Assembly (NCBI RefSeq): GCF_024498355.1
Contig: NZ_CP101833.1
Coordinates: 1,035,001-1,099,000 of the forward strand
Origin: Bacillus pumilus
GTDB taxonomy: Bacteria > Bacillota > Bacilli > Bacillales > Bacillaceae
Length of the DNA stretch: 64,000 nucleotides
Reading direction: 5' to 3'
The notes under the pieces were generated by a model, which worked only from the letters and a program-made list of their open reading frames with translations, was not told the DNA's origin and did no database searches. Made by a program: the position numbers and the translations under genes. Shown here in pieces: positions 38,487 to 60,258 of the stretch; position 1 is the stretch's first letter; each line of letters opens with the position of its first letter.

Positions 38487-39318
38487 TGTGCAAACAGCAT
38501 TGAAAGTATGTGAGGAGACCATTCAAACCCATTCAAAAACGTTTTATCGCGCCTTTTCTATGCTGCCTAAAAAGAAAAGACAGGCAGTTTGGGCTGTTTA
38601 TTCCTTTTGCCGGAAAGCGGATGACATTGTAGATGAGTCTCCTTCACCAAAAGAGGAGTTAACATCCTTTCGGGAGGCGTTTGATCGATTCTTACATGGT
38701 GAGGTAGACCGGAATGATCCGATGTGGGTGGCGCTAGAGCATACATTTCAAGAATTTCGTATGGATGAAGCCCCGTTCCGTGACCTGCTCCAAGGACAGG
38801 AGATGGATTTAGAGCAGCATAGATATGAAACGTTAGATGAACTGCTCATCTATTCCTATCATGTAGCGAGTACAGTTGGACTCATGCTGCTTCCGATTAT
38901 TGCGCCGCGTAAAAAGGAACAACTAAAAGAAGCAGCCATTTCGTTAGGGATTGGCATGCAGCTCACCAACATCCTTCGTGATATTGGTGAGGATGCAGCT
39001 GAAAGAAATCGCATTTATTTGCCTAAGCAAGTGATGGATCAATTTGGGTATACAGAGCAAGAATTGCAAGAAGGTGTGATCAATCAAGCATTCAAGCACG
39101 TATGGGAGTACATTGCTTTTGAGGCAGAGGCGTATTACGAGGAATTTTTTGACCATCTTCATGAATTTCCGCTTTATTCACGTATGCCGGTGAAAGCAGC
39201 TGCTCACTTTTATAAGGCCATTTTAGATAAAACTAGAGAAAATGAATACCGCGTCTTTACGCAGCGATCATTTCTTTCAAATCAGGAAAAAGCACTTATT
39301 TTAGAAGATATTACGTAA
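38479..39318 (+). CDS. crtM: Dehydrosqualene (4,4'-diapophytoene) synthase CrtM, YisP orthologue
   Basis: The 279-residue squalene/phytoene synthase family enzyme has both Asp-rich motifs: FCRKADDIVDESP (first) and TNILRDIGEDAAERNRIYLP (second). It should join two farnesyl diphosphates into a C30 backbone. Its location before yisQ and yisR shows it is the orthologue of B. subtilis yisP, whose product is reported to act as a farnesyl-diphosphate phosphatase. With two desaturases upstream, a full synthase role is more likely here. The GTG start follows AAAGGAAGTGAAGCTAA. Confidence 0.88.
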   Translation: MVDVQTALKVCEETIQTHSKTFYRAFSMLPKKKRQAVWAVYSFCRKADDIVDESPSPKEELTSFREAFDRFLHGEVDRNDPMWVALEHTFQEFRMDEAPFRDLLQGQEMDLEQHRYETLDELLIYSYHVASTVGLMLLPIIAPRKKEQLKEAAISLGIGMQLTNILRDIGEDAAERNRIYLPKQVMDQFGYTEQELQEGVINQAFKHVWEYIAFEAEAYYEEFFDHLHEFPLYSRMPVKAAAHFYKAILDKTRENEYRVFTQRSFLSNQEKALILEDIT

Positions 39319-39321
39319 TGG

Positions 39322-39348
39322 AAAAAGGACTGCACCCGCAGTCCTTTT
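39322..39348 (+). terminator. Terminator after crtM (left copy)
   Basis: GGACTGC-ACCC-GCAGTCC followed by TTTT. An almost identical hairpin (one base different) sits on the far side of the repeat element at 39519-39541. Confidence 0.85.
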
Positions 39349-39353
39349 AGCGT

Positions 39354-39509
39354 GTAGACAAAGACAAACCCCCGCATTCTGTGTCAGGTGTGCGCTCCGG
39401 TGCTCACGCATGTCAAAATTGCTCCGCTCCGTTACTTGTTAAAGGTTTTCTATCACGCTGAAAAGAAGACAAAGAGCTAAAATAAAGATCATTTTAGCTC
39501 TTTGTCAAC
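39354..39509. repeat. Terminator-associated repeat element, copy A
   Basis: 156 bases bounded by GTAGACAAA and TTTGTCAAC, near-perfect inverted ends. The 3' end is a perfect 16-bp hairpin, arms GACAAAGAGCTAAAAT and ATTTTAGCTCTTTGTC. An outer inverted repeat AGCGTG / CACGCT spans its left part. It is the most diverged of the three copies and lacks the CCTTCCTAGACT segment. The terminator is duplicated on both sides. No coding capacity. Confidence 0.9.
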
Positions 39510-39518
39510 AATCTGAAT

Positions 39519-39541
39519 GGACTGCACCCACAGTCCTTTTT
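39519..39541. terminator. Terminator copy facing yisQ (right copy)
   Basis: GGACTGC-ACCC-ACAGTCC followed by five T residues; a near-duplicate of the hairpin at 39322-39348. It ends at the yisQ stop. Confidence 0.8.
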
Positions 39542-40916
39542 ATGTGGAAGAAAAACGATACTCCGTCCATACCTTTGAACGCCACCGCCTATACATGAAG
39601 ATGCCTCTTACCCATTCATCCACGATAAAAGAAATCCAAACCCCAATCAGGCCCATCTCAAGCTGAATGCCTAATATATAAGCGATCGGAAGCCCGATCC
39701 CCCACATTGAAATCATCGCCATATACACAGGAAACTTCGCGTCACCAGCAGCCCGCAAGGAGTTAATGATGACCATATTAAAAGAACGTCCAGGTTCTAA
39801 AATGATCGTCAATAGGAGGAGTAGGCCGGCGATTTGAATGATCTCGCTGTTGCTAGTGAAAAAAGCAAGCAAATGCGTCGATGATAAAGATAAAGCAATG
39901 GAAGAAAGAAGGGAGACGGCAATGGCCCAGTATAAACTTTTCATGCACCTGCGATAGGCAGCATCGAATTCTTTCGCCCCAATATGGCGTCCGATTAAAA
40001 TTTGAGTCCCTTGGCTAATGGCTGCACCAAACAACATAATGAACATCATCAAGTTCTGAGTATATACTTTTGCTGCTAGTGCCTGCGTTCCCATAAATGT
40101 AATAAACAGCGTAATGACCATCTGAGAACCGTTATAAGAGAGCTGCTCGCCAGCAGAAGGAATCCCGATTTTTAGCAGCTTTTTTAAATGCGTCCGCTGG
40201 ATATGAAACATGTTCTTCAGTGAAAACCGTAACCCAATTCGGCGGCGAACAATCAGGATCATCGCTATTAATCCGATGAACCGAGCAAGTGAGGTTGAAA
40301 GGGCAACACCCATTACACCTAACACTGGGAAGCCAAACGGACCGAAAATGACGAAATAATTACCGGCAACGTTTAACAAGTTCATTCCGATGGTGACATA
40401 CATCGTGTCTCTTGTATATCCATAGCTTTTTAAAATAGCACTATAGGTCATAATGAGCGCTTGAATAAAAGAAAGCAGGCCGACAATTTGTAAAAAGACC
40501 GTTGCATCTGGCATCAGCTCACTTGATAACCCCACCATGTGTAAGATTGGAACAGCTAACACAAACATGAGGAGACTAATGACAAAGCTAATCAGGAAGT
40601 TGGTTCCTAGTGAAACATAGGCGACTTGAGCCGCTTCCTGCTCGCGGCTCGCTCCTAAAAGCTGAGCAATTACAATCGTCGTACCTGTTGTAATGAAGCT
40701 GAACATGACAATCAATAAATTTAGCAGCTGGTTGCTTACACCTACTGCGGCAACGCTGTTATCGGAGTATTGGCTCAGCATGAGTGTATCCGCACTTCCC
40801 ATGAGCATATATAAAGAGATTTCGATAAAAATAGGCCAAGTTAACGCAAATAATGAAGGGTGGGATCTTTCACTTTTGGCTTGAATCTTTTGAAATGACA
40901 GTGCTTGAGGTTTCAT
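39540..40916 (-). CDS. yisQ: MATE-family exporter YisQ
   Basis: The 458-residue membrane protein has about 12 helices in two MATE repeats. Features include LTWPIFIEISLYMLMGSADTLMLSQYSDNSVAAVG at the start, the repeat-type KIGIPSAGEQLSYNG at the middle, and GAAISQGTQILIGRHIGAKEFD. MATE exporters remove cationic compounds by Na+ or H+ antiport; the substrate is unknown. It occupies the yisQ position between yisP/crtM and yisR. The ATG at 40916 follows AAAGGGGG by seven bases. Confidence 0.92.
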   Translation of the reverse strand: MKPQALSFQKIQAKSERSHPSLFALTWPIFIEISLYMLMGSADTLMLSQYSDNSVAAVGVSNQLLNLLIVMFSFITTGTTIVIAQLLGASREQEAAQVAYVSLGTNFLISFVISLLMFVLAVPILHMVGLSSELMPDATVFLQIVGLLSFIQALIMTYSAILKSYGYTRDTMYVTIGMNLLNVAGNYFVIFGPFGFPVLGVMGVALSTSLARFIGLIAMILIVRRRIGLRFSLKNMFHIQRTHLKKLLKIGIPSAGEQLSYNGSQMVITLFITFMGTQALAAKVYTQNLMMFIMLFGAAISQGTQILIGRHIGAKEFDAAYRRCMKSLYWAIAVSLLSSIALSLSSTHLLAFFTSNSEIIQIAGLLLLLTIILEPGRSFNMVIINSLRAAGDAKFPVYMAMISMWGIGLPIAYILGIQLEMGLIGVWISFIVDEWVRGIFMYRRWRSKVWTEYRFSST

Positions 40917-41029
40917 CACATAGCCCCCTTTCGTATAAATCCGATTTATAGTGTACCTTGCTTCGACTATAATAAGAAGAGATGAAACCGAAACTTATTG
41001 GAGAAATCCGACTTCATAAGGGGATGAAT

Positions 41030-41896
41030 ATGGATCTATTTATTACATTTACTGTACCGCCGTTTCCGGTTTATATTGCTTCAGGCAAAGGCATATTTCA
41101 TCAAGGAGAAAGACATATCTCTAGAATCTTCACTGTATTTGATCTTCTCTATGTCACAAAAGGTAAACTATGGATAACAGAGGATGAGGCGGCTCATCAC
41201 GTAAAAGAAGGAGAATATATCATTCTATCACCCGGCCTGTCTCACGGTGGACATCTGCCATGCGAAGAAGAAACCCATTATGAGTGGCTGCATTTCTCAA
41301 TTGATCCATTTGAGTTTACGAACCGGCCGAGAGAACACTGGTTTGATATGAAACAAAATCAAGCCACCTTTGAAAAACCCGCAAAATATGAATTTAGCCT
41401 GCCACGTCAAGGAAAAGTGAAAGGAAGAAGCGTGTTAGAGAAGCACCTTTCAGCTATGAGGGCGTTGAATGATGACGCGTCTGAACTTCCGTTAAAAAAA
41501 CAGCTTCAATTTGAGGAGCTGCTCATTCATTTACAAAAAGAAGCATTTCATATTCCAAGTGCAAAGGAGACCGTCGCATCAGAAGTGGTTCACTATCTCG
41601 AGCGCCATTTTATGAAAAAATTACAAATGAAGCAGCTGGCAGAGAAGCTTCATTATCATCCTGATTACATCACACGATGCATGCAGACGGTGTATGGACT
41701 GACTCCTAACCAGTACATCAATCGTCTCAAAATCGAAAAAGCCAAAAGCCTGCTTGCCTCAACGAATGAAAAAATAGCGGCCATTGCAGAACGTGTAGGT
41801 ATTGACGACCCTACTTATTTTTCTAAGCTGTTTCGGCAAAATGAAGGCATGCCGCCTATCCAATACCGTCATCTAGCAAGAAGAACGACAAAGTAA
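41030..41896 (+). CDS. yisR: AraC-family transcriptional regulator YisR
   Basis: The 288-residue protein has an N-terminal cupin-like sensor domain (about 1-140; FDLLYVTKGKLWI, EGEYIILSPGLSHGG) and two C-terminal helix-turn-helix units (LQMKQLAEKLHYHPDYITRCMQ and IAAIAERVGIDDPTYFSKLFR). The ATG at 41030 is chosen because AAGGGG lies six bases upstream and the length fits YisR; a longer frame from 40982 overlaps the divergent promoter region. It is divergent from yisQ, which it may control. Confidence 0.88.
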   Translation: MDLFITFTVPPFPVYIASGKGIFHQGERHISRIFTVFDLLYVTKGKLWITEDEAAHHVKEGEYIILSPGLSHGGHLPCEEETHYEWLHFSIDPFEFTNRPREHWFDMKQNQATFEKPAKYEFSLPRQGKVKGRSVLEKHLSAMRALNDDASELPLKKQLQFEELLIHLQKEAFHIPSAKETVASEVVHYLERHFMKKLQMKQLAEKLHYHPDYITRCMQTVYGLTPNQYINRLKIEKAKSLLASTNEKIAAIAERVGIDDPTYFSKLFRQNEGMPPIQYRHLARRTTK

Positions 41897-41907
41897 AGGA
41901 ACGTGAA

Positions 41908-42471
41908 ATGATGAAAGGGAGAAAAGAGGAGTTTGTGAGCATACGCCCATTAGACGAAACTGATTTAGAGGTGGTGTGGCATTTGAAATTTAAAGCACCA
42001 GACCAGTCCTATCGAAAGTGGAATGCACCTTATTTTCATGAACACGAGATCCCGCTTGCTGCATTTAAGAAACGATACGTACAGGATGACGCCATTCCGC
42101 CAAAGCTATATGGCATTGTCATAGGTGGCGAAATGAAGGGCACCGTTTCTTATTATTGGGAGAATGAACGAACACGCTGGCTTGAATGCGGGATTCTTAT
42201 TTATGACTCACGCTTTTGGAATGGAGGAGTTGGAACAAAGGCGTTAAGTCTATGGATAGATGAGCTATTTTCATACATTAATATCCCGCGAATCGGTCTC
42301 ACCACCTGGTCTGGTAATGAACGCATGATGCGGTGCGCGGAGAAATGCGGGTTTACCCTTGAGGGAAGACTGCGAAAGGTCCGTTACTACCAAGGAGAGT
42401 ATTATGATTCTATGCGTTACGGGATGCTGAGAGAGGAATGGCAAAGCCTCCCGCGCCATACCACTGAATAA
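41908..42471 (+). CDS. GNAT N-acetyltransferase
   Basis: The 187-residue protein has the GNAT_RimJ/SpeG-like fold: VSIRPLDETDLEVVWHLKF at the start, LIYDSRFWNGGVGTKALSLW as the acetyl-CoA loop, and LTTWSGNERMMRCAEKCGFTLEGRLRK near the end. It transfers acetyl from acetyl-CoA to an amine that cannot be named. It starts 11 bases after yisR, so they may be co-transcribed. Confidence 0.85.
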   Translation: MMKGRKEEFVSIRPLDETDLEVVWHLKFKAPDQSYRKWNAPYFHEHEIPLAAFKKRYVQDDAIPPKLYGIVIGGEMKGTVSYYWENERTRWLECGILIYDSRFWNGGVGTKALSLWIDELFSYINIPRIGLTTWSGNERMMRCAEKCGFTLEGRLRKVRYYQGEYYDSMRYGMLREEWQSLPRHTTE

Positions 42472-42539
42472 TTATTTTTATTTTTAGGACAAAAGTAGCG
42501 TATAATTGAATAAACTAAAAAAGAAGGGTGGCGAATGAG

Positions 42540-42806
42540 TTGCGCTGGATGACCGGATGGTTTGTGTCGATTATAGTGGCCATTTATCTATTTGTAGATG
42601 CGCCTAAACATGGGAAGAATAAATGGCTTTGGGCCATTTTAGGCCTTTTATTCGGGCTCTTTACACTTGGAGTATACCTCATCAAAACAGAAAGAAAAGG
42701 ATTGGGCTGGACGGTTCTGATCGTGTCCATTATCATCTATTCTATTTTCATTCTAGTCTATGTCTTTTACTTCTTATTGCTGATCATTGGATACTCAAAT
42801 GCATAA
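42540..42806 (+). CDS. Small membrane protein, first of a tandem pair
   Basis: An 88-residue protein with three or so hydrophobic segments and a conserved core DAPKHGKNKWLWAILGLL, then KTERKGLGW. It is a clear paralogue of the next gene. The TTG at 42540, after AAGAAGGGTGG, aligns with the TTG start of the paralogue; a GTG at 42528 lies too close to this site. I do not recognise a function. Confidence 0.7.
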   Translation: MRWMTGWFVSIIVAIYLFVDAPKHGKNKWLWAILGLLFGLFTLGVYLIKTERKGLGWTVLIVSIIIYSIFILVYVFYFLLLIIGYSNA

Positions 42807-42843
42807 TAGAGAGCACGCGTGTACATAAGGGGGTGTTTGAATC

Positions 42844-43101
42844 TTGAGAATTACGGGTTTATTCGTATCACTTGCTGTTGCCATTTATTTATGGTTTGAT
42901 GCGCCAAAGCATGGCAAAGACAAATGGCTGTGGGCCATTTTAGGCGTGCTATTTAGTACAATCGTTCTTGGTATTTACTTGATCAAGACAGAAAGGAAGG
43001 GACTCGGCTGGACGATTCTCATTTTAACCATCTTGTTTTACCTCATGCTGCTGATCTCTGTTTTGATCGGTATGATTCTTTTTTATCAGAGTCCTTCATG
43101 A
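42844..43101 (+). CDS. Small membrane protein, second of a tandem pair
   Basis: An 85-residue protein closely similar to the preceding gene product over its first 60 residues (DAPKHGKDKWLWAILGVLF, GIYLIKTERKGLGWT); the C-terminal helix is diverged. It starts with TTG eight bases after AAGGGGGTG. It overlaps the convergent acyltransferase gene by six bases. Function unknown; tandem duplication followed by divergence is the simplest origin. Confidence 0.7.
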   Translation: MRITGLFVSLAVAIYLWFDAPKHGKDKWLWAILGVLFSTIVLGIYLIKTERKGLGWTILILTILFYLMLLISVLIGMILFYQSPS

Positions 43102-43122
43102 AGAAGGGCTTTTTTCTTTTAC
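43090..43122. terminator. Bidirectional terminator inside overlapping gene ends
   Basis: AGTCCTTC pairs with GAAGGGCT (one wobble), with a T-rich tract after it on the plus strand. It overlaps the last codons of both convergent genes. Confidence 0.65.
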
Positions 43123-43632
43123 CTTTTGAGCAGGCACACCTGCAATGATCATCTGCTCTTCATGAAAGGAACGATTCACCACTGCATTTGCTCCAATTGA
43201 AATATGATTCGCAATATAGATGTTTCCAAACAGCTTAGCACCAGGGCCAATCCATACATGATCTCCGATGGTTGGGACATCATTTTCATGATGGTTTTGA
43301 CCGATATTCACCCCTTGATGAATATCACAAAATGCCCCGATTTTTGCATGCTTGTTCACAATCAAAAGACCAGTATGATTGATTCTGAGCCCAGGGCCAA
43401 AGACGCCAATCGGAATATCAAAGCCAAGCTGCATGCCTTTCTTTTTATGTAAATAGCGGTAAAACCATTTGCGTAATGTGGCTCCGCTATTTGTATAGTA
43501 TTCATATTTTCGTAAATACCTCTGATATTTCCATATATCATCCCCAAACCACTTTGGTCTTCTGTGCGTGATGGCTAATGCTTTCTTATCCTGTGACAAG
43601 TAGTGGTGAAGATCATGCTTCGTTACAATCAT
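43096..43632 (-). CDS. Hexapeptide-repeat acyltransferase (CysE/WbbJ-like)
   Basis: The 178-residue protein has an N-terminal helical part, then a left-handed beta-helix of hexapeptide repeats (IPIGVFGPGLRINHTGLLIV, AKIGAFCDIHQGVNIGQ, PTIGDHVWIGPGAKLFG, HISIGANAVVNRSF), as in serine and sugar O-acetyltransferases. The conserved His of the active site is in the RINHTG or NHHEND loop. The substrate is unknown; a cell-surface sugar is likely because of the WbbJ-like layout. Confidence 0.85.
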   Translation of the reverse strand: MIVTKHDLHHYLSQDKKALAITHRRPKWFGDDIWKYQRYLRKYEYYTNSGATLRKWFYRYLHKKKGMQLGFDIPIGVFGPGLRINHTGLLIVNKHAKIGAFCDIHQGVNIGQNHHENDVPTIGDHVWIGPGAKLFGNIYIANHISIGANAVVNRSFHEEQMIIAGVPAQKVKEKSPSS

Positions 43633-43973
43633 CAGATCTCCCTCGATTCCCTTTCGTTTCAGAGAAATTATACCATTAAAACCATTTATATCAATAAAAA
43701 ATTGTGTTATTGCTTTTTTTCTACATTCATTTCATCCAGCTTTCTGTATAAAATAAGCACTCAGTGACGAGTAGAACAAAAGAACCAGGAAGAATGATTT
43801 GTCATTTTTTTCAACATTTTCACGATCAAGCGTTCATCTCCTTACGGCAGTAGATGTTTGTAAAAGATACACGAAAATACCCGTAAAAAAGAAAATATTG
43901 CATTCATATGATTTTCGAATCATCTTTTTGAATACAATTGACTTTCATATCGCATATCCTCTAGTCTAGTAAA
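43633..43973. other. AT-rich intergenic region upstream of the siderophore operon
   Basis: No supported open frame on either strand. The TTGACT at 43938-43943 is a candidate -35 box, but no good -10 element stands at the usual distance, so the promoter is not placed exactly. The Fur sites begin at 43974. Confidence 0.5.
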
Positions 43974-43994
43974 TGAAAATGATAATCTTTATCA
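43974..43994. promoter_or_regulatory. Fur box of the siderophore operon
   Basis: TGATAATCTTTATCA (43980-43994) matches 13 of 14 positions of the 7-1-7 Fur consensus; a second copy shifted by six bases (43974-43988) matches 11 of 14. It ends 19 bases before the first start codon, overlapping the region just upstream of the ribosome binding site. Confidence 0.88.
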
Positions 43995-44013
43995 ATTGGA
44001 GGAGTGTTTTATT

Positions 44014-45360
44014 ATGTCCATCAAAACCGTTTCTAAAAATCAGCAGTTTTTAGAGCAGCAAAATCAAAGAGAATCTAATGCAAGGTCTTATCCGAGACGG
44101 TTCCCATTAGCCATGCAAAAAGCCGAAGGTATGATCGTGACAGATGCGGATGGCAGAGAGTTTTATGACTGCCTGGCAGGCGCAGGAACACTTGCACTTG
44201 GTCACAATCATCCTGTTGTTATAGAAGCTATTGAACGTATGCTTCATGAAAAAAGACCATTGCATACGTTGGACATAACCTCAGAAATTAAAGAAGAATT
44301 TGTGAATGAGATTTTTTCTCACTTGCCAGAGGAGTTTGCAAAAAGAGCGAAAATCCAATTTTGTGGACCTACTGGTGGTGATGCGATAGAAGCAGCCATT
44401 AAATTAGTCAAGACAGCGACAGGAAATCGTTCGATTCTCTCCTTCCACGGGGCTTATCATGGTGCGACACATGGCACGATGTCATTAAGCGGCAACTTAT
44501 CTCCAAAGGAAAGAGTGCAAGGTTTAATGCCAGATGTTCATTTCCTGCCTTATCCATATGAATACCGCTGCCCATTTGGGATTGGTGGTAAAGATTCGCA
44601 CCGCATTTCCAGCTCTTATATTGAGCGTGTATTAAATGACCCTGAAAGCGGCATTCTTCCGCCTGCAGGTATGATCTTTGAAGCCGTGCAAGGCGAGGGC
44701 GGCTCAATACCAGCATCCATTGAATGGATGAAAGAAATGAGACGAATCACAAAAGAAAAAAGAATTCCGCTCATTATCGATGAGGTTCAATCAGGCATTG
44801 GCAGAACAGGGAAGATGTTTGCCTTTGAACATGCAGGAATAGTGCCAGATGTCATTGTATTATCAAAAGCAATTGGTGGAAGTCTGCCGCTTTCAGTTGT
44901 GATTTATGATAAAGACTTGGATCAATGGAATCCAGGAGCACATATTGGCACATTTAGAGGAAATCAAATGGCGATGGCTGCTGGAACCGCTACGCTTAAA
45001 TTTATAAAAGAATCCAATCTGCTTGATCATGTAGACCAATTAGGTGATCGTATGCAGGCTCATCTAAAAGACATCCAAAAACAAGTGCCTGCACTCGGTG
45101 ATGTACGTGGAAGAGGTTTAATGATTGGCGTTGAAGTCGTCAATCCAAATGAGAAACAGGATGTGGACGGAAGCTATCCAGCGAATCCAGAGCTAGCCAG
45201 TATCATTCAAAAGAATTGCTTCGATAAAGGCTTAATTGTGGAGACAGGAGGCCGTTTCGGAAGTGTAATTCGATTCTTACCACCATTGATCATGACAGAA
45301 GAACAGCTTGAAAAAGTCATCGCTATTTTTAAAGAGGCAGTTTACGATGCAATCAACTAA
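44014..45360 (+). CDS. dat: Diaminobutyrate-2-oxoglutarate transaminase (RhbA-like)
   Basis: The 448-residue class III PLP aminotransferase has the PLP lysine in VLSKAIGGSLPLS, the pyridine-binding Asp in LIIDEVQSGIGRTG, and QFCGPTGGDAIEAAIKLVK-like residues in the phosphate site. It forms L-2,4-diaminobutyrate from aspartate semialdehyde, the precursor of 1,3-diaminopropane. The ATG at 44014 follows GGAGGAG; the ORF reading from 43996 would start upstream of the ribosome binding site. It is the first gene of a six-gene siderophore operon behind a Fur box. Confidence 0.9.
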   Translation: MSIKTVSKNQQFLEQQNQRESNARSYPRRFPLAMQKAEGMIVTDADGREFYDCLAGAGTLALGHNHPVVIEAIERMLHEKRPLHTLDITSEIKEEFVNEIFSHLPEEFAKRAKIQFCGPTGGDAIEAAIKLVKTATGNRSILSFHGAYHGATHGTMSLSGNLSPKERVQGLMPDVHFLPYPYEYRCPFGIGGKDSHRISSSYIERVLNDPESGILPPAGMIFEAVQGEGGSIPASIEWMKEMRRITKEKRIPLIIDEVQSGIGRTGKMFAFEHAGIVPDVIVLSKAIGGSLPLSVVIYDKDLDQWNPGAHIGTFRGNQMAMAAGTATLKFIKESNLLDHVDQLGDRMQAHLKDIQKQVPALGDVRGRGLMIGVEVVNPNEKQDVDGSYPANPELASIIQKNCFDKGLIVETGGRFGSVIRFLPPLIMTEEQLEKVIAIFKEAVYDAIN

Positions 45361-46843
45361 GCCTTCTGTTGATTCATTATTTATTAATCAAAGCCAGCTT
45401 GGGAGAGAGTCCTTCCAAGCGGCTCTCCATACATCCATCGACAGCTTACTGGCCCAGTGGCAAAAAGACACAGGACCGTACAGCGGAATATTGCCTGGGA
45501 AATTAGCGGCTAGTGTCGAATCGTTATTTCAATTTCAACCGTCTGGTGAATCAATTGATTCTGTCTTTCGAGATATAAAAGAACACCTTTTGCCTCATTT
45601 GGTTGATGTGTCACATCCTAAATGCTTGGCACATCTTCATTGCCCGCCCCTCATTCCTGCACTTGCAGCAGAGGTGATGGTAAGTTCCTTTAACCAATCG
45701 ATGGATTCCTTTGACCAAAGCGGCATTGCTTCTTTGGTGGAGGAGGAAATCCTAAAGTGGCTGTGTGCGAAGTTTTCTTATGGAGATCTAGCAGATGGGA
45801 CATTTACGAGCGGCGGAACCCAATCTAACTATATGGGACTGCTGCTTGCGAGAGATGCATTTTGCGAAAACACATGGCAATGGAATGTTCAGCAGAAAGG
45901 TTTACCGAGCGAAGCTCACCGTATGCGGATTCTCTGCTCTAAGAATGCTCATTTCACTGTGAAAAAATCAGCATCCCAGCTAGGTTTAGGGGAACAGGCA
46001 GTCGTACTGGTAGAGACCGATGAGCATCACCGAATGGACCTCAATGATTTGAAGCAGAAGCTGGTTGAGTTAAAGGAGCGTGATCTGCTGCCATTTGCGG
46101 TAGTGGCGACTTGCGGGACAACTGATTTTGGCAGTATTGATCCGGTTCGAGATGTGTATGACATCGTCAAGCCATACGGCCTGTGGATTCATGCAGATGC
46201 TGCATATGGCGGAGCACTTGTGTTAAGCGAAACCTACCGAAGTAAATTAGACGGTATTGAGCTTGCTGATTCGATCACGATCGACTTTCATAAACAATTT
46301 TATCAGCCGATCTCCTGCGGGGCATTTTTGCTAAAGGATAAAAGACATTTTGGTTTGATTGATTATCATGCAGATTATCTCAATCCAAAGGAAGATGAGC
46401 TGGAAGGAATTCTACATCTCGTGAATAAATCTGTCCAAACAACGCGCCGATTTGACGCACTGAAATTACTTCTCTCACTTCGTCTTATTGGAGAAGAAGG
46501 GTTTGGCGACATCATAGACCATACGATCCTTTTTGCGAAGGATGTGGCTGCGCTCATTGAAACAAATGCTCACCTTGAGGTGATCAATCCTGAGCCAGAG
46601 ATCAATGCGGTTGTGTTTCGATTTATAGATGATCATCGAGAGGATGACATCAATAAGATCATTCACCGGACATTATTCCAAACAGGTACTGCTGTCGTTG
46701 CAAAAACAGTGGTTGATGGTCAAACATGCTTGAAATTCACTTTGTTAAATCCGAGAACGACAATCACACATATTGAGGAAATCCTTTCTGACATCATTGA
46801 TATCGGGATCGCTCATATTCAATCCGGGAGGGTACTACGTTGA
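45347..46843 (+). CDS. ddc: L-2,4-diaminobutyrate decarboxylase (RhbB-like)
   Basis: The 498-residue group II PLP decarboxylase has the PLP lysine in TIDFHKQFYQPISCG and the ring-stacking and Asp region in WIHADAAYGGALVLS. It turns diaminobutyrate into 1,3-diaminopropane, the backbone amine of schizokinen and rhizobactin 1021. The ATG at 45347 lies inside the dat end (14-base overlap), after AGAGG. It ends in TTGA, shared with the next gene's TTG. Confidence 0.9.
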   Translation: MQSTKPSVDSLFINQSQLGRESFQAALHTSIDSLLAQWQKDTGPYSGILPGKLAASVESLFQFQPSGESIDSVFRDIKEHLLPHLVDVSHPKCLAHLHCPPLIPALAAEVMVSSFNQSMDSFDQSGIASLVEEEILKWLCAKFSYGDLADGTFTSGGTQSNYMGLLLARDAFCENTWQWNVQQKGLPSEAHRMRILCSKNAHFTVKKSASQLGLGEQAVVLVETDEHHRMDLNDLKQKLVELKERDLLPFAVVATCGTTDFGSIDPVRDVYDIVKPYGLWIHADAAYGGALVLSETYRSKLDGIELADSITIDFHKQFYQPISCGAFLLKDKRHFGLIDYHADYLNPKEDELEGILHLVNKSVQTTRRFDALKLLLSLRLIGEEGFGDIIDHTILFAKDVAALIETNAHLEVINPEPEINAVVFRFIDDHREDDINKIIHRTLFQTGTAVVAKTVVDGQTCLKFTLLNPRTTITHIEEILSDIIDIGIAHIQSGRVLR

Positions 46844-48621
46844 GTCAATATAAACAAATGGCTGAAAATGCAACCATGCAAAGCTTTTTAAACTGTTTTT
46901 TACGTGAAACAGGAATCGATCGATCTGCAAAAAAAGAGACCAAAGTAGATGGCTCACTTGTATTCGTGGCAAAACTAGCAAAGCAAGATCTTGAGCTTGT
47001 GATTCCGATCCGATATTTTTCACCTGTAGGCCGTCATCTATTTGATTTTCCGATTCGCTTTCGCCCGCAAGGTAGTGAACAAGAAGGCACGATTGTCGAT
47101 TACACAACACTTGTTGCTTTATGTTCTAAGGAGCTTCTCATTGAATATGGCCGGACAGATGCAGAGGATGAATTCATGCTTCGCATCATTTTAAGCTGCC
47201 GGAATATTGAACGATTCTTAAAAGAGAGAGAAAGTGATCGAACGGCTCTTTCTCAAGCTGATTTTGAGTATATTGAGGCGGAGCAGTCACTTCTCCTTGG
47301 ACATTTAACGCATCCTACACCAAAGAGCAGACAGGGAATGACAGAAGAGGAGGAAGCGGTTTATTCTCCTGAGCTGAAAGGGTCTTTCCAGCTTCATTAC
47401 TTTAAAGCGCACCATTCTATCGTGCTTCAGGATTCTTCTATTTCACAGTCTGCCGCAAACCTCATGCTAGAGGAGCTCTCACGCCAGGTGCCAGAAGAAA
47501 AAGAGAGACTGCATACATTAACAGAAGACGGAGAATATGTCCTCATTCCGATCCACCCGCTACAAGTCAAAGTGGTCATGGAGAAAGCGTTCGTAAAGCG
47601 TTATGTGGATGGAGGGAAACTGACTTATTTAGGGCCGCTAGGGTCTGAATACACAGCGACCTCTTCGTTTAGAACCGTTTATCAAAAGGACTCTGCTTAC
47701 ATGCTCAAATTCTCTGTTCCTGTGAAAATTACGAACTCCTTACGTGTGAACAAACAAAAGGAACTTGATCGCGGAGTTGAGATGTCTCGCATTTTAAAAA
47801 CTGAATTGGGCGTTTCTTTATATGACAAATTCTCTGGATTCCGGGTGATTGAAGATCCAGCGTATCTATCCATTCAAGGAGATGAGGCTGAATCTGGCTT
47901 TGAAGTGGTCATTCGTCAAAATCCATTTTTGCATCATGAAAAAGGCGCAAGCTTAATTGCTGGGCTATGCCAGGATCATGCGTATGGAGGAAAATCGCGA
48001 TTAGCAGGGATCATTCATGAACTTGCAGACGCAGAAGGCCGGTCAACGGAGGCTGTCAGCCAAGATTGGTTTAGACAATATTTAACCATTTCGTTAGAGC
48101 CGATGCTCTGGCTGTTTGAAACGTATGGTCTTGCGCTGGAAGCACATCAGCAAAATGCTGTCGTACAGCTGAAGGCTGGTTATCCAGACACATTCTATTA
48201 TCGTGATAACCAAGGCTACTATTATAGTGAATCGAAAAAGGATAAACTCGCAAATCTTGTCCAAAACTTGAGCGTCAGAAGTGAAACCATTTGTGCTGAT
48301 GATGTTGCCGTTGAGAGACTGCGTTATTATTTCTTCTTTAATCATTTATTTGGTCTCATTAACGGCTTTGGCACAGAGGGGCTGGCAAAGGAAGAGGTTT
48401 TGCTGGCACTTGTTAGAGACACATTGCTCGCTCATGAAGAGAAATATGGTGCATCTGACCTGACAAACAGCCTTCTCCGCTCAAAGGAACTGCCTTCAAA
48501 AGCGAATTTGCTGACAAGGTTTGAAGATATGGATGAGCTGACGGGGTCTCTGGAAACACAGTCTCGATACACATCTGTATTGAATCCGCTCTTTTTACAT
48601 AAGGAGGCGCTGATTGGATGA
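46840..48621 (+). CDS. NIS siderophore synthetase, IucA/RhbC-like
   Basis: The 593-residue IucA/IucC-family enzyme has the motifs VLIPIHPLQVKVV, TATSSFRTVY and KITNSLRVNKQKELDRG in the nucleotide site, and EAHQQNAVVQL at the position of the usual (S/G)xHxQN. It should join citrate to the first N-acetyl-N-hydroxy-diaminopropane arm using ATP. The TTG start lies seven bases after GGGAGGG and overlaps the ddc stop. The first of two synthetases in the operon, probably the type A enzyme. Confidence 0.9.
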   Translation: MSQYKQMAENATMQSFLNCFLRETGIDRSAKKETKVDGSLVFVAKLAKQDLELVIPIRYFSPVGRHLFDFPIRFRPQGSEQEGTIVDYTTLVALCSKELLIEYGRTDAEDEFMLRIILSCRNIERFLKERESDRTALSQADFEYIEAEQSLLLGHLTHPTPKSRQGMTEEEEAVYSPELKGSFQLHYFKAHHSIVLQDSSISQSAANLMLEELSRQVPEEKERLHTLTEDGEYVLIPIHPLQVKVVMEKAFVKRYVDGGKLTYLGPLGSEYTATSSFRTVYQKDSAYMLKFSVPVKITNSLRVNKQKELDRGVEMSRILKTELGVSLYDKFSGFRVIEDPAYLSIQGDEAESGFEVVIRQNPFLHHEKGASLIAGLCQDHAYGGKSRLAGIIHELADAEGRSTEAVSQDWFRQYLTISLEPMLWLFETYGLALEAHQQNAVVQLKAGYPDTFYYRDNQGYYYSESKKDKLANLVQNLSVRSETICADDVAVERLRYYFFFNHLFGLINGFGTEGLAKEEVLLALVRDTLLAHEEKYGASDLTNSLLRSKELPSKANLLTRFEDMDELTGSLETQSRYTSVLNPLFLHKEALIG

Positions 48622-49172
48622 GGCATCGTATTAAGTTCATTCGCGCTGAATATGAAAGGGACGTCCGGCTTGTCCATAAGTGGATGCAAGAAGAGTACGT
48701 TCACCCATTTTGGCATTTGAATATTCCGTTTCCTGCTTTTGAAAAGCATTTTTATCAGGCGATTCATGATCCGCATCAGACCCTTTATTTAGGAACCATT
48801 GACGGGACGCCGATGAGTTATTTTGAGGCATACAACGTCAAAGGTGATGTGATTGAATCCTACTATCAGCCTTCTCCGCATGATCAAGGAATTCATCTGT
48901 TAATAGGGGAGCCAGATTATGTCGGAAAAGGATTTGCTGCGCCGCTGCTTCAGGCGATGACAGCATTTCAATTTGAGCAGAACAAAAGAACAGAAAAAAT
49001 TGTTGCTGAACCGGATATTCGCAATGAAAAAATGATTCATGTATTTGAAAAATGCGGCTTTGAACGTGTAAAACCAGTTACTTTACCTGATAAAACAGGG
49101 CTTTTGATGTTTTGTGATCGAGATCGATTTGAAAGGAAGTATAACCATGACGTGGTTCAACAAGCAAAATAA
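48618..49172 (+). CDS. Siderophore N-acetyltransferase (RhbD-like)
   Basis: The 184-residue GNAT/IucB-type protein has EYVHPFWHLNIPFPAFEKHF at the start, HLLIGEPDYVGKGFAAPLLQ as the acetyl-CoA loop, and MIHVFEKCGFERVK near the end. It acetylates the hydroxylated diaminopropane to make the hydroxamate. The start overlaps the preceding stop (ATGA), and the end overlaps the monooxygenase gene by 26 bases. Confidence 0.88.
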   Translation: MRHRIKFIRAEYERDVRLVHKWMQEEYVHPFWHLNIPFPAFEKHFYQAIHDPHQTLYLGTIDGTPMSYFEAYNVKGDVIESYYQPSPHDQGIHLLIGEPDYVGKGFAAPLLQAMTAFQFEQNKRTEKIVAEPDIRNEKMIHVFEKCGFERVKPVTLPDKTGLLMFCDRDRFERKYNHDVVQQAK

Positions 49173-50496
49173 TGTAGTGGATGTAATTGGGATTGGCATT
49201 GGCCCATTTAACCTAGGGCTTGCCGCACTATCTGAAGAAGTAAATGAAATTGACGCTTTGTTTTTTGAAAGAAGTGAAGCCTTTCATTGGCATCCAGGTA
49301 TGCTCATTGAAGGGACGACACTTCAAGTCCCATTTTTAGCGGACCTTGTCAGCATGGCAGATGTGAAAAGTAAATATAGCTTTCTCAACTATTTGCAGGA
49401 GCAAAACCGTTTGTATTCATTTTACTTCCTAGAGGACTTCCATATCCCGCGCAAGGAATACAGTCATTATTGCCGCTGGGTCGCTGACCAATTAGACTCT
49501 TGCCGGTTTGGTATGAATGTTGAATCTGTCTCATTGATCGAGAAGGCAGGAGAAAAGCGATATGAAGTGCATGTCCGTCATGTGAAAGATCAAACCGTAG
49601 AGGTGTTTGAAAGTAAGCACCTCGTCTTAGGAATTGGCACGCAGCCGGCGATACCAGCATCGCTCCAGCCAGCTTTAGGAGATAAGGTGTTTCATTCTGC
49701 TGACTATTTAAAACGCAAGAAAGAAGGCTGTTTCAAAGGAAAGTCTGTGACGGTCATCGGCTCTGGTCAAAGTGCGGCAGAAGTGTTTTATGACATTTTA
49801 TCAGATGATGAGGCGAAGGATATTCACTGGTTCACACGGTCTAAAGGGTTTTTCCCAATGGAATATTCAAACCTTGGACTTGAGTATTTTTCTCCAGACT
49901 ATATTGATTTCTTTTATGAGCTTCCGCAAACAAAAAAAGACGCGTTATTAAAGCAGCAAGACTTGCTGTATAAAGGCATCAGCTCTGCGATGATCCGTGA
50001 TATTTATCACTTGCTTTATGAACGTTCTGCCTGCGGAGAACAGTTGAACACGGTGCTGCAAGCGATGACCGAGGTCAACTTGATTGAGGAAACAGCGGAT
50101 GGCTTGTCGATTTCCTGCTCTCAATGGATAAAAGAGGAATCCTTTACTCATGAGACGGATATTGTCGTCTTGGCGACTGGCTACCAATCGGTATTGCCGC
50201 CGTTCATTGATCCGATTGCCCACCACATTGAGTGGGATGATCAAGGACGATTCCAAGTTGAACGTGAATATCGCCTGAAAACAAACACAATGGGTGAAAA
50301 TGATATTTTTGTGCAAAATGCAGAGCTTCATACACATGGGGTCGGCGCACCAGATTTAGGGCTTGGGGCTTACCGAAACAGTGTGATTATCAATGAACTT
50401 GCCCGAAAAACCGTGTATCCACTATATCAAAAGCACGTCTTCCAGACATTTGGTACACACAAGAACGCAAACACATTTGAAGAAATCAAAGGTTAA
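49147..50496 (+). CDS. Amine N-hydroxylase (RhbE/IucD-like)
   Basis: The 449-residue FAD/NADPH monooxygenase has the FAD motif GIGIGPFNLGLAAL, the substrate-side HWHPGMLIEGTTLQVPFL, the NADPH motif VIGSGQSAAEVFYD, and ATGYQ at 350. It hydroxylates the amine of 1,3-diaminopropane before acetylation. The ATG at 49147 follows AGGAAG within the acetyltransferase gene; a longer reading from 49114 is not supported by a ribosome binding site. Confidence 0.9.
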   Translation: MTWFNKQNNVVDVIGIGIGPFNLGLAALSEEVNEIDALFFERSEAFHWHPGMLIEGTTLQVPFLADLVSMADVKSKYSFLNYLQEQNRLYSFYFLEDFHIPRKEYSHYCRWVADQLDSCRFGMNVESVSLIEKAGEKRYEVHVRHVKDQTVEVFESKHLVLGIGTQPAIPASLQPALGDKVFHSADYLKRKKEGCFKGKSVTVIGSGQSAAEVFYDILSDDEAKDIHWFTRSKGFFPMEYSNLGLEYFSPDYIDFFYELPQTKKDALLKQQDLLYKGISSAMIRDIYHLLYERSACGEQLNTVLQAMTEVNLIEETADGLSISCSQWIKEESFTHETDIVVLATGYQSVLPPFIDPIAHHIEWDDQGRFQVEREYRLKTNTMGENDIFVQNAELHTHGVGAPDLGLGAYRNSVIINELARKTVYPLYQKHVFQTFGTHKNANTFEEIKG

Positions 50497-50509
50497 GGAG
50501 GATGAAGCG

Positions 50510-52324
50510 ATGAGTGTACAAGATGAATTGAAAAAAGCGGTGAATCCTGCTGCTTGGAAAAAGGCAAACCAGCGAATGGTGGCAAAAATGCTGTCTGAAT
50601 ACATGTATGAGGACATGCTTCATCCCGTTCAGCTAGATCGTAAGGATGGCATCGCTCAATATGAATTAATCATTCATGAACATAAGAAATATCGCTATCT
50701 CGCAAAACCTCGTTTGTTTGATAGTTATGATACGATCGCTGAATCGATCGAGTGCTGTCAAGACGGGAAATGGACAAAGGATGTCAGTGCCATTGTGTTT
50801 TTACTGGACATCCAGCCGATCATTCCAATGTCTTCTGACACAACAGGCCATCTGATCAAAGAGCTTCATCATACCCTGTTAGCAGATGTTCATTTGCTGT
50901 CGAAAAAAGCACTTCGTGCGGATGAACTGACAGATACAGATTACGCCTGGATCGAAGGAGAAATGACAGGGCATCCTTGGATTGTGTATAACAAAGGGCG
51001 CATTGGATTCAGTTACGATGATTACTTAGCCTATGCACCTGAAAGGCAAGAAAGTGTGCAGCTGTCTTGGATTGCTGTTCACAAAGAACTTGCGACATTC
51101 CATGCGGTTGAACATGAAAACTATGAACAAGTGATCGCAAAAGAATTAGATGAACTGACCATTCGTCAGTTTCACCGCGTCTTAAAGGATGAAGGGCTGA
51201 ATGCGGCTGATTATTATATGATGCCTGTTCATAAGTGGCAGTGGACTCATATGATTATTCAGCATTTCCCAGAAGATTTGGCCATGCGCCGCATTGTGTA
51301 TGTAGGAGAGGGGCTTGATCAATATATTCCGCAGCAGTCGATCAGAACCTTTACGAACATTTCAAATAAAGGTAAGCATCATATTAAACTGCCAATGAGT
51401 ATTTTAAATACACTTGTGTACCGAGGGCTTCCGTCAGAACGTACAGTCATCGCCCCTCGTATTACAGCGCATATTAAAGGGATTGCTGATCAAGACTCAT
51501 TTTTATCTGACGTATGCCGCGTGATTTTACCAGGTGAGAATGCAAGTATCAATGTCGATCATCCATACTACAGCAAATTGTCTGGTGCGCCGTATCAATA
51601 TCTTGAAATGCTCGGTGTGATTTTTAGAGAAAGCATTTATACGTACTTAGATGAAGGGGAGTGCCCTGTTACACTTGCGGCACTCACTTATGAGGATCAT
51701 GAAGGAGAGCCGTATATTAAACAGCTCATTGAAAAATCAGGTCTCTCAGCAAAAGAATGGATGGCGAAATTTTTCCATGTCGTGATGCCGCCGCTGCTGC
51801 ATTTTATGTATCAATACGGTACAGTCTTTTCACCGCACGGGCAAAATACGATTCTTGTGTTAAAAGATCATCGGCCGCATCGTTTGGCGATCAAAGATTT
51901 CGTTGACGATGTGAACATTAGTGATCAGCCGCTGCCTGAATTAGCTTCACTAGAAGAAGAGTTAAAAGAAGTGCTGCGCAGTGAGCCGCCGGAAGGTCTA
52001 GTACAATTTATCTTTACAGGATTGTTTATTTGTAACCTGCGTTACGTATCAAACGTGTTAGACAATCATCAGCTGTTAGATGAAACCACTCTTTGGCGCT
52101 TGCTTGCAGAAGAAATTCAGCATTATCAAGAGCAATTCCCGCAGCTAAAGGACCGTTTTGAATTATTTGATCTATTCCAGCCTCAGTTGACAAAGCTTTG
52201 CTTAAACCGTAATCGAATGATTGATTATGGCTATGGAGATGGAGACGACCGGCCGCATGCGTCAGAGCATGGGAAGGTCACAAATGCACTCGCTCATGTT
52301 CTTTCATCCGTTGGCGAGAAGTAA
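50510..52324 (+). CDS. NIS siderophore synthetase, IucC/RhbF-like
   Basis: The 604-residue second synthetase carries MMPVHKWQWTHMI, RTFTNISNKGKHHIKL and the signature SPHGQNTILVLKDH. It should attach the second hydroxamate arm to the citrate intermediate, completing a schizokinen-like product. The ATG at 50510 follows AAGGAGG by eight bases, 13 bases after the previous stop. It is the last gene of the operon; the operon terminator is split by a repeat element. Confidence 0.9.
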   Translation: MSVQDELKKAVNPAAWKKANQRMVAKMLSEYMYEDMLHPVQLDRKDGIAQYELIIHEHKKYRYLAKPRLFDSYDTIAESIECCQDGKWTKDVSAIVFLLDIQPIIPMSSDTTGHLIKELHHTLLADVHLLSKKALRADELTDTDYAWIEGEMTGHPWIVYNKGRIGFSYDDYLAYAPERQESVQLSWIAVHKELATFHAVEHENYEQVIAKELDELTIRQFHRVLKDEGLNAADYYMMPVHKWQWTHMIIQHFPEDLAMRRIVYVGEGLDQYIPQQSIRTFTNISNKGKHHIKLPMSILNTLVYRGLPSERTVIAPRITAHIKGIADQDSFLSDVCRVILPGENASINVDHPYYSKLSGAPYQYLEMLGVIFRESIYTYLDEGECPVTLAALTYEDHEGEPYIKQLIEKSGLSAKEWMAKFFHVVMPPLLHFMYQYGTVFSPHGQNTILVLKDHRPHRLAIKDFVDDVNISDQPLPELASLEEELKEVLRSEPPEGLVQFIFTGLFICNLRYVSNVLDNHQLLDETTLWRLLAEEIQHYQEQFPQLKDRFELFDLFQPQLTKLCLNRNRMIDYGYGDGDDRPHASEHGKVTNALAHVLSSVGEK

Positions 52325-52514
52325 AAAAGAAAAGCTGTAGACAAACCCTCGCGCATTCGGTGTCAGTCCTGCGTGCCGGTGCTCACGAATGTCAAATTCG
52401 CTCTGCTCCGGTACTCGTCCTTCCTAGACTGCAAAGGTTTTCTATCACGCTGAAAAGAAGACAAAGGGCTAAAATGAGTTTATTTTAGCCCTTTGTCAAC
52501 AGCTTTTTGGTTTT
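52325..52514. terminator. Operon terminator interrupted by a repeat element
   Basis: AAAAGCTGT (52331-52338) and ACAGCTTTTT (52499-52507) would form an ordinary terminator stem with a T-run, but the repeat element lies between them. Whether the remaining 16-bp hairpin of the element terminates transcription cannot be told from sequence. Confidence 0.6.
52337..52500. repeat. Terminator-associated repeat element, copy B
   Basis: 164 bases bounded by GTAGACAAA and TTTGTCAAC. The 3' hairpin arms are GACAAAGGGCTAAAAT and ATTTTAGCCCTTTGTC (16 perfect pairs). It is nearly identical to copy C and in the same orientation. An internal hairpin CGAAT-GTCAA-ATTCG sits between two CCGG boxes. It interrupts the siderophore operon's terminator stem. 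Confidence 0.92.
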
Positions 52515-53372
52515 TTAAGAAAATGCTTGAGAAGCAAGGAAATAAAGAAGCGCCGGATCGTTCTGCTTTTCTTTTCCGCGAATCATCATAAAATGCGCTT
52601 TGTTTGTTTTCGTAAACCCTGCTTCTATAAGTGATGTATGCAGGCGCTCAGCTGTTTCCTCCTGCATATCTAAACGAATGGCACCAGAATAAGACGAGAT
52701 GAGCGATTGGATGAGTGAAAGCGCCGTTTGTTCATCGTTTGCTGCAAGCGGGCCAATCATCAGATTGGCTGGCGTTTCGACGCCAAAGGCAAAGCCGGTT
52801 ATTTCGTGATGTTCATCCTTTGCGATCAGCCGGAACGCTGCTCGTTCCATTCGTTTTTTTAAAAAGCTTGCTCGATTGGTGCCTGCACCTTTCTCGTCAA
52901 GTGCTTCAATGGACGGAAGGTGCGTTTCACCAGCAGGAGAAAGGTCGATCTTACCTGACACGCGAAGTGCCGAAGGGTTTGTTTTCTGTGCTTTGTATGT
53001 ATGAATGTAACCGGCCGTGTGAAACCCGATCTTTTCGTAAACCGGCTGCCCCTGTGCAGTAGCCGTTAAAACGACAGGAACGCTCTGATCACTTTGACGA
53101 AGCAAGGTGTCAATCATTTTACGTGCAAGGCCTAAGCCGCGATGTGTCTCCGATACAATGACAGCCCCAATTGACGCGACTCTGTCATATTGGAAAAGTC
53201 CTGCACATGAGATCACTTGTCCGTCAGTTGTTGTAAAACCTGTAAAATGTCCATTTGTTAAAAGAGATGTGAGTTCTTCTGCATTGTAATCAGGCCAGTC
53301 TACCTCTTTTGACAGTGCGATGAGATCTGGTATGTCACCAAGTGTTAATGATCGTTGAATAACGTTTGCCAA
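52515..53372 (-). CDS. GNAT acetyltransferase with two domains
   Basis: The 285-residue protein has an N-terminal GNAT domain (about 1-130; AVIVSETHRGLGLARKMIDTLL is the acetyl-CoA loop and PVYEKIGFHTAGYIHTYKA the last strand) and a second GNAT-like half from about residue 150 (GFAFGVETPANLMIGPLAAND). I chose the TTG at 53372, nine bases after AAGGAG; the TTG at 53381 touches that site. It is flanked by repeat copies B and C in the same orientation. Substrate unknown. Confidence 0.8.
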   Translation of the reverse strand: MANVIQRSLTLGDIPDLIALSKEVDWPDYNAEELTSLLTNGHFTGFTTTDGQVISCAGLFQYDRVASIGAVIVSETHRGLGLARKMIDTLLRQSDQSVPVVLTATAQGQPVYEKIGFHTAGYIHTYKAQKTNPSALRVSGKIDLSPAGETHLPSIEALDEKGAGTNRASFLKKRMERAAFRLIAKDEHHEITGFAFGVETPANLMIGPLAANDEQTALSLIQSLISSYSGAIRLDMQEETAERLHTSLIEAGFTKTNKAHFMMIRGKEKQNDPALLYFLASQAFS

Positions 53373-53433
53373 TACACGCAACTCCTTCTTAGCTGAATTG
53401 ATCTATCTGTATCGTACCATAAGAAGTCATAAG

Positions 53434-53462
53434 AAAAAGGAAAAGGGGGCTCCTTTTCCTTT
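53434..53462. terminator. Terminator-like hairpin, left of repeat copy C
   Basis: AAAGGAAAAGG and CCTTTTCCTTT form an 11-bp stem. A near-duplicate lies at 53638-53666 across the repeat. It stands upstream of the GNAT gene rather than downstream of a gene on its own strand. Confidence 0.75.
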
Positions 53463-53468
53463 CAGCGT

Positions 53469-53631
53469 GTAGACAAACCCTCGCATTCGGTGTCAGTCCT
53501 GCGTGCCGGTGCTCACGAATCTCAAATTCGCTCCGCTCCGGTACTCGTCCTTCCTAGACTACAAAGGTTTTCTATCACGCTGAAAAGAAGACAAAGGGCT
53601 AAAATCAAGATCATTTTAGCCCTTTGTCAAC
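53469..53631. repeat. Terminator-associated repeat element, copy C
   Basis: 163 bases bounded by GTAGACAAA and TTTGTCAAC, nearly identical to copy B. CAGCGTG just before its left end pairs with CACGCTG inside the element, followed by AAACC / GGTTT. The 3' hairpin has the same 16-bp arms as copy B, with a different loop. The flanking terminators are direct repeats differing at two positions. Confidence 0.92.
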
Positions 53632-53637
53632 AATCTG

Positions 53638-53666
53638 AAAGGAAAAGGGAGATCCTTTTCCTTTTT
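53638..53666. terminator. Terminator of the PPC-like gene (right of repeat copy C)
   Basis: AAAGGAAAAGG-n-CCTTTTCCTTTTT hairpin seven bases after the stop of the minus-strand secreted-protein gene; on that strand it ends in a T-run from the A-rich side. Confidence 0.75.
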
Positions 53667-54608: not shown

Positions 54609-54694
54609 GACAAACATCTCCTTTTGAGTGAATGACTTTTATTTGTAATATCGGTAAATAATATTAAATATTGATATTTATCCCAATATTTATC

Positions 54695-60005: not shown

Positions 60006-60175
60006 CAAAAAAAGCCTTCTGATAAGAAGAAGACTTTTTGGCTGTATCGTAATTCTTCTCCTTATCTTCCAAGCAGTTGCTTGCTGGATTTAGCACCTTG
60101 GTCATAGAAAATACATTTCTACTACACCGGTTGCTGAGGCTTCACAGGGCCAGTCCCTCTGCCTCTCTTGATAAG
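60006..60175 (-). promoter_or_regulatory. SAM-I (S-box) riboswitch with terminator
   Basis: Read on the minus strand: CTTATCAAGAGAGGCAGAGG, then GACTGGCCC, GAAGCCTCAGCAACCGG and AAGGTGCTAAATCCAGC, closing with GATAAG (aptamer 60061-60175). These are the conserved S-box elements. Downstream, AGTCTTCT-n-AGAAGGCT with a T-run (60006-60034) is the terminator that forms when SAM is bound. It should switch off yitJ-metH when methionine/SAM is plentiful. Confidence 0.95.
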
Positions 60176-60258
60176 AAAGCGATATGAACATGTCAATGAA
60201 TTGAACTTCCATCAACTGTAACGAAAAAATCGAAAATAATCAATGGAAAATTTAAAAT

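Follow-up and report, generated by a model that had tools for sequence, protein, structure and literature searches.

An abundant intergenic repeat of Bacillus pumilus interpreted as an IS1182-type miniature element in duplicated terminator-like hairpins

Introduction

The 64,000-nucleotide stretch of Bacillus pumilus DNA analyzed here (NCBI RefSeq assembly GCF_024498355.1, contig NZ_CP101833.1, positions 1,035,001 to 1,099,000 of the forward strand; hereafter the window) carries three copies, designated A, B and C, of a short intergenic repeat that recurs throughout the genome. A first-pass annotation had described these copies as a structured family that might represent either a non-autonomous mobile element or a small-RNA module. 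The evidence presented in this work, which comes from comparison of sequences, indicates that the repeat is very probably a miniature inverted-repeat transposable element (MITE), that is, a non-autonomous element related to insertion sequences (IS) of the IS1182 family, and that it probably transposes into hairpins chosen by their shape. Target duplications, empty sites in relatives and IS1182-like ends support the mobile-element interpretation well.

Hairpin targeting by members of the IS1182 family is already in print. In the parts of the published accounts consulted, the targets of the staphylococcal elements IS1272 and TnSha1 are inverted repeats devoid of a sequence consensus, several of them terminators (PMC5678879, PMC4923244), and target hairpins were confirmed as terminators by RNA-seq mapping (PMC4923244). 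The consulted portion of another study reports that IS1182 elements are over-represented between convergent genes (PMC9208149).

Results

The three copies exist where the first-pass annotation had placed them and with the ends it described, and comparison with further copies extends the element by about 6 bases at each end; the corrected limits are given in Table 1. The typical element, CAGCGTGTAGACAAAC...TTTGTCAACAATCTG, spans 175 bp (exactly so in 38 of the 66 copies with two recognizable ends) and is bounded by 15-bp imperfect terminal inverted repeats that read CAGCGTGTAGACAAA and CAGATTGTTGACAAA inward. An imperfect inverted copy of the left end lies within the element (reverse complement CAGCGTGATAGAAAACC), giving rise to the outer stem noted previously, and the right end forms a hairpin of 16 bp, the size originally reported. 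Copy A departs from the typical element in its first base (T instead of C), in six extra bases near the left end and in an internal deletion, while copy B has lost both outermost end sequences and shows no target duplication. At about 175 bp, the element is too short for a transposase gene; the list of open reading frames (ORFs) for the window started at 90 amino acids, above what the element could hold.

At least 79 copies, including A, B and C, are present in the genome (3.74 Mb, two contigs). Searching with a 24-base internal pattern and up to three mismatches yielded 78 genome matches, distributed 37 and 41 over the two strands, and the reversed pattern yielded none under the same conditions; one or more further copies were detected by DNA similarity alone (e.g. 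2073023-2073187). These 78 matches exclude a lack of further copies or a single tandem duplication, the outcomes that the annotation had held to be incompatible with a repeat family, and one recent tandem duplication is ruled out by the location of the copies all along the chromosome within unrelated flanks. Stretches of 901 bp were fetched around the 79 copies and 78 were kept for analysis, the copy found by similarity (L112) being dropped for lack of an anchor match. Both element ends could be recognized in 66 of the 78.

In 48 of these 66 two-ended copies, a terminator-like stem-loop of 19-30 bp is present twice, directly abutting the element on either side, and the duplication is perfect in 19 of the 48. 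When the left flank of each copy was paired with the right flanks of other copies, none of the 4290 mismatched pairs reached the same score. All 48 right-hand hairpins fold as stem-loops, with energies from -3.5 to -20.4 kcal/mol, and the limits of the duplication fall at or near the feet of the stem. Paired hairpins differ at 35 of 886 stem positions and 23 of 291 loop positions; of the 29 imperfect pairs, 12 have the weaker hairpin on the left and 6 on the right. Several copies lacking the duplication in this genome have a hairpin on the left only (L044, L046, L048, L078, L102), and others on the right only (L064, L094). With a looser test that allows the ends to shift, duplications were also observed in relatives, in 12 of 12 rows of one set, one of which is copy C itself, and in 27 of 38 loci of a second set (10 without, 1 at a contig edge) that comprises a second clade, 80-86% identical, plus a few first-clade loci.

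The T residues that accompany these hairpins are unevenly distributed. On the plus strand, there are 1.98 T per 8 bases after the left hairpin and 5.23 after the right one; on the minus strand, the corresponding values are 3.23 after the right hairpin and 4.44 after the left. Since T residues lie mainly outside the far hairpin, transcripts arriving from either side may end there, with the element in their 3′ untranslated region.

Sites B and C could be located in relatives; judged by the gene that separates copies B and C, the closest named ones are B. zhangzhouensis, B. pumilus, B. altitudinis, B. xiamenensis, B. safensis and B. australimaris. Site C is alignable in seven of nine named relatives. 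In five of these the hairpin is single and undivided; in B. zhangzhouensis the element separates two hairpins, and in B. altitudinis a short remnant is left. Eight of the nine relatives lack an insertion at site B, where the empty site consists of a hairpin with arms AAAAGCTGTAGACA and TGTCTACAGCTTTT that has TGTAGACA in common with the element's own end. In B. pumilus 36R the element is present at site B, its right hairpin intact and its left hairpin fused at TGTAGACA. A deletion between the look-alike words of the target hairpin and the element end thus probably removed the left outer stem of copy B, and the insertion site explains why the first-pass annotation found this stem missing on that side. 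The arrangement in B. pumilus 36R, with the right hairpin kept and the left one fused, disfavors the alternative of an IS1272-like hairpin replacement at copy B. The terminator at site B (window about 52330-52508, L195-L203; uninserted in eight of nine relatives) has arms, AGCTGTAGACA and TGTCTACAGCT, that are close to the left end CAGCTTGTAGACAAAGTCTACAAGC of an insertion sequence type introduced below as IS-B; it is perhaps an old IS end turned host terminator, or else the likeness is due to chance.

Candidate partners for the element were sought among the insertion sequences of this genome and its relatives. The genome holds four full-length IS1182-family elements of 1549 bp (IS-A), all matching NF033551, along with a decayed piece of another IS type. 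Three of the four IS-A copies are flanked by whole-hairpin duplications of 31, 29 and 23 bp. Among 14 IS loci examined in relatives, duplications of 15-26 bp are present at all ten full-length ones; the remaining four are decayed or partial, with 20/23 matching positions at L156, 16/23 at L158 and nothing clear at L157 and L159. One of the relatives' elements (L151, in genome G022) represents the second type, IS-B, with a length of 1504 bp and ends CAGCTTGTAGACAAA and CAGACCGTAGACAAACCC. The transposases of IS-A and IS-B are 46.5% identical over 443 residues and each carry PF13751, PF05598 and PF01609. At locus L149 (genome G018), a MITE and an IS-A-type element stand in tandem, with an end pair spanning both and one terminator common to them, as if both had inserted in the same duplicated terminator. 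The IS-A ends (L031-L034, L146-L155) take the form of hairpins in which the terminal repeat pairs with an inverted copy of itself, with T-rich sequence inward, as if IS-A carried inward-facing terminators.

As would be expected of a MITE, the element shares end sequences with autonomous elements. Its left end agrees with that of IS-B at 14 of 15 positions, compared to 12 and 11 of 15 for IS-A, and a run of 13 bases at positions 7-19 exactly matches the IS-B right end; the inner part has GACAAA in common with IS-B, where IS-A has GAGAAA. On balance, then, the partner of the MITE was probably of the 1504-bp IS-B type, which is intact in a related genome. Mobilization by the resident IS-A type is a possible but rather unlikely alternative: four full-length copies are at hand in this genome and the right end of the MITE is identical to the IS-A left end at 13 of 15 positions, but this end matches the IS-B left end equally well, and both the left end and the inner motif are closer to IS-B. 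An origin by simple internal deletion of IS-A or IS-B is unsupported, the match being confined to the ends.

The exact element, used as a query, matches 38 of 44 genomes of the genus, five of them weakly (G002, G003, G015, G025 and G040; E-values from 1e-19 to 1e-6), and none of 36 genomes from five sister genera; a query displaced by 5 bases matches 37 of the 44. An IS1182 transposase match above the cut-off is found in only 13 of the 44 genomes, and no such match occurs in several genomes rich in the MITE, G001 and G004 among them, which suggests that the MITE outlasts its partner. The genome with the most first-look repeat candidates in the genus (G041, with 158) has only partial IS1182 matches, below the cut-off.

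The 78 copies are distributed unevenly with respect to gene orientation. When gene context was called, crudely, from the longest open stretch on each flank, convergent genes were found to flank 45 copies and co-directional genes 19 in one orientation and 13 in the other; divergent genes flank none, and one copy is unresolved. Among the 27 ORF gaps longer than 40 bp in the window, 8 are divergent and 6 convergent, and against this small, ORF-based background the copies differ in both respects (Fisher p-values of 8e-6 for divergent and 0.002 for convergent gaps). A fixed orientation relative to genes, hinted at by the earliest copies analyzed and by T counts (more T after than A before the element in 24 copies, the reverse in 13 and ties in 11), was dropped, given that the 19 and 13 co-directional copies yield p = 0.38.

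The structure of the element was analyzed at the RNA level, where a rival interpretation applies: that the repeat is primarily a functional RNA module, either a structured 3′ untranslated region or a small RNA, maintained by selection, and that its mobility is incidental. Its fold is very stable (z = -8.8 for positions 53458-53632, copy C displaced by 5 bases, with none of 200 shuffles as good), and the position of T residues mainly beyond the far hairpin means that transcripts may traverse the element. On an alignment of 38 copies picked for diversity (10 from this genome and 28 from relatives), RNAalifold obtained a consensus of 41 pairs in six helices, in which 97.1% of cells are paired, compared to 92.2% in shuffles and 31-44% with partners slid, and 89 cells have both sides changed compared to 29.9 in shuffles; these figures are biased in favor of the structure, which was derived from the same alignment. 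The double changes affect 6 of 16 pairs in the 3′ hairpin (helix 6) and 3 of 8 pairs in the inner hairpin, and these two helices show compensatory changes between clades. The other four helices of the 38-copy alignment, including the outer stem, show no compensatory changes. The structured family proposed in the first-pass annotation therefore finds backing in the 3′ and inner hairpins, but the outer CAGCGTG/CACGCTG and AAACC/GGTTT stems are conserved without covariation. Moreover, neither the number of doubly changed pairs (9 vs. 7.6, reached by 61 of 500 shuffles) nor the number of pair types (23 vs. 25.2) is above shuffles, so that few events may underlie the covariation.

Other observations render this functional RNA interpretation very unlikely. 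Insertion sites vary among close relatives, Rfam returns no match to the copies above the gathering score and no promoter-like site was found in or near copy C; the hairpin ends, furthermore, may be needed at the DNA level, because the IS elements also have hairpin ends. The same combination of no Rfam match, no promoter-like site around copy C and sites differing between species disfavors a small-RNA family. Within the window, Rfam detects only a SAM riboswitch aptamer (RF00162), at 60059-60177 on the minus strand, with 95.1 bits.

Table 1. Location of the repeat copies and their associated features in the window.
Feature	Position	Strand	Remarks
Left hairpin copy flanking A, 24 bp	39324..39347	+	22/24 identical to right copy; abuts element
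Copy A of the MITE, 168 bp	39348..39515	+	Between convergent ORFs 38479-39318 (+) and 39540-40919 (-)
Right hairpin copy flanking A, 24 bp	39516..39539	+	T residues follow
Copy B of the MITE	about 52332..52505	+	Outermost ends fused with target hairpin remains AAAAGCTGTAGACA..TGTCTACAGCTTTT
Left hairpin copy flanking C, 27 bp	53436..53462	+	25/27 identical to right copy
Copy C of the MITE, 175 bp	53463..53637	+	Between ORFs 52515-53381 (-) and 53673-54617 (-)
Left terminal inverted repeat of C, CAGCGTGTAGACAAA	53463..53477	+	14/15 identical to IS-B left end
16-bp hairpin, right end of C	53590..53628	-	Followed by TTCTTTTCAG on minus strand; scores terminator-like
Right terminal inverted repeat of C, TTTGTCAACAATCTG	53623..53637	+	
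Right hairpin copy flanking C, 27 bp	53638..53664	+	Undivided single hairpin in 5/7 alignable relatives

Discussion

The repeat analyzed here, which sits in terminator-like stem-loops downstream of genes, combines terminal inverted repeats, a target duplication, empty sites in relatives and many copies with the lack of a transposase gene, as MITEs do, and it shares with IS1182 systems the insertion into inverted repeats and the presence of an IS1182-type DDE transposase in the host or its relatives. ISfinder reportedly lists variable long duplications for the IS1182 family. The partner transposases match NF033551, PF13751 and PF05598, and inverted-repeat targets and terminal inverted repeats are features in common with IS1272 and TnSha1 of staphylococci. 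As described in the consulted parts of the reports on those elements, however, IS1272 and TnSha1 eliminate some or all of the target hairpin and generate no duplication, the behavior that defines the IS1272 subgroup, whereas the Bacillus repeat carries no transposase and has the whole hairpin duplicated in 48 of 66 copies.

Wan et al. proposed for IS1272 a model based on cruciform formation by palindromes, with the 3′ ends of the element joining at the feet of the stem-loop. If they join at the 5′ feet, the stem-loop is duplicated (pathway b, given only as an alternative), and IS1272 is thought to use the 3′ feet, losing the stem-loop, according to the sections of the paper available (PMC5678879). 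The Bacillus elements look as pathway b predicts. Under such a mechanism, the target palindrome would be extruded as a cruciform and recognized by its shape, and the element 3′ ends would join at the 5′ feet of the stem-loop, leading to its duplication. Insertion in a terminator would be tolerable, since transcripts from both directions would still meet a hairpin with a T tail on its outer side.

Several results weigh against an IS1182-type MITE inserting in terminator hairpins. A clear duplication is missing in 18 of the 66 two-ended copies, and in 12 of the 78 copies matched by the pattern an end could not be recognized. Under a stricter hairpin test, requiring at least 8 net pairs and passed by 20 of 390 controls, only 32 of the 66 copies have hairpins on both sides, with 14 having a right hairpin only, 13 a left hairpin only and 7 neither. 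A simple consensus scan for terminators left both flanking hairpins of copy C unflagged and picked out the element's own 3′ hairpin alone, on the minus strand; the flanking hairpins are termed terminator-like by virtue of their shape, position and T residues. On the side of the partner elements, the fourth IS-A copy has a partial duplication of 14 bp, only a decayed relative of IS-B and no intact one was seen in this genome, the matches between MITE and IS ends are too short for significance alone (best E-value 0.19) and, beyond its ends, the MITE has no match to IS-A or IS-B. Lastly, the relative studied in most depth, IS1272, is described in the published sections consulted as deleting its target hairpin without duplication (PMC5678879, PMC4923244).

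Among the alternatives to a MITE of IS1182 type, repetitive extragenic palindromic (REP) sequences mobilized by a Y1 transposase (the REP-associated tyrosine transposase, RAYT) are the least credible: the high copy number, intergenic location and palindromic nature of the repeat resemble those of such sequences, but its terminal inverted repeats and long, hairpin-sized duplications are those of the DDE-transposase elements of the same genomes. The 190-bp intergenic repeats of Bacillus subtilis, with which a comparison had been suggested, resemble the element in being short intergenic repeats of a related species, and a search for literature on them found nothing.

A parallel for the duplications lies in another family. 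In the part of the report consulted, IS1630 of Mycoplasma fermentans, a member of the IS30 family, generates duplications of 16, 23, 25 and 26 bp in four of seven copies (PMC3317919); it resembles the MITE in these variable long duplications and in the duplication of target inverted repeats, and differs from it in transposase family, in being a full IS and in having few copies. Bacterial MITEs in general are likewise short, non-coding and folded, with terminal inverted repeats and target duplications, and no family duplicating whole terminator hairpins is described in the portion of the source consulted, the text of which has no match for Bacillus or IS1182 (PMC10969869). The re-annotation of B. 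pumilus SAFR-032 treats transposases and long repeats, and not this repeat, in the sections available (PMC4924849). Hairpin targeting by the IS1182 family and inverted-repeat duplication by IS1630 are hence known, and a MITE of this kind is in no paper found by a literature search on titles and the start of abstracts, with most subscription journals outside its scope.

A broader proposal, which we regard as improbable, is that these elements constitute a shape-targeted transposon system with host terminators as its niche. Hairpin feet would set the staggered cut, and the duplication would be the hairpin whatever its sequence; the doubled hairpins and the covarying hairpins of the element would persist by supplying new structured 3′ ends to dozens of genes and so altering mRNA stability or read-through.

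The MITE interpretation accounts for a repeat that is abundant in the Bacillus pumilus group and might otherwise pass for an RNA family; its prediction is that, in these bacteria, the ends of many genes carry two near-identical hairpins enclosing a structured insert. The copies supply dozens of naturally occurring cases of what appears to be cleavage at hairpin feet by an IS1182-type system, with the hairpin duplicated in full, and the claim that a DDE transposase selects its target by DNA secondary structure becomes directly testable.

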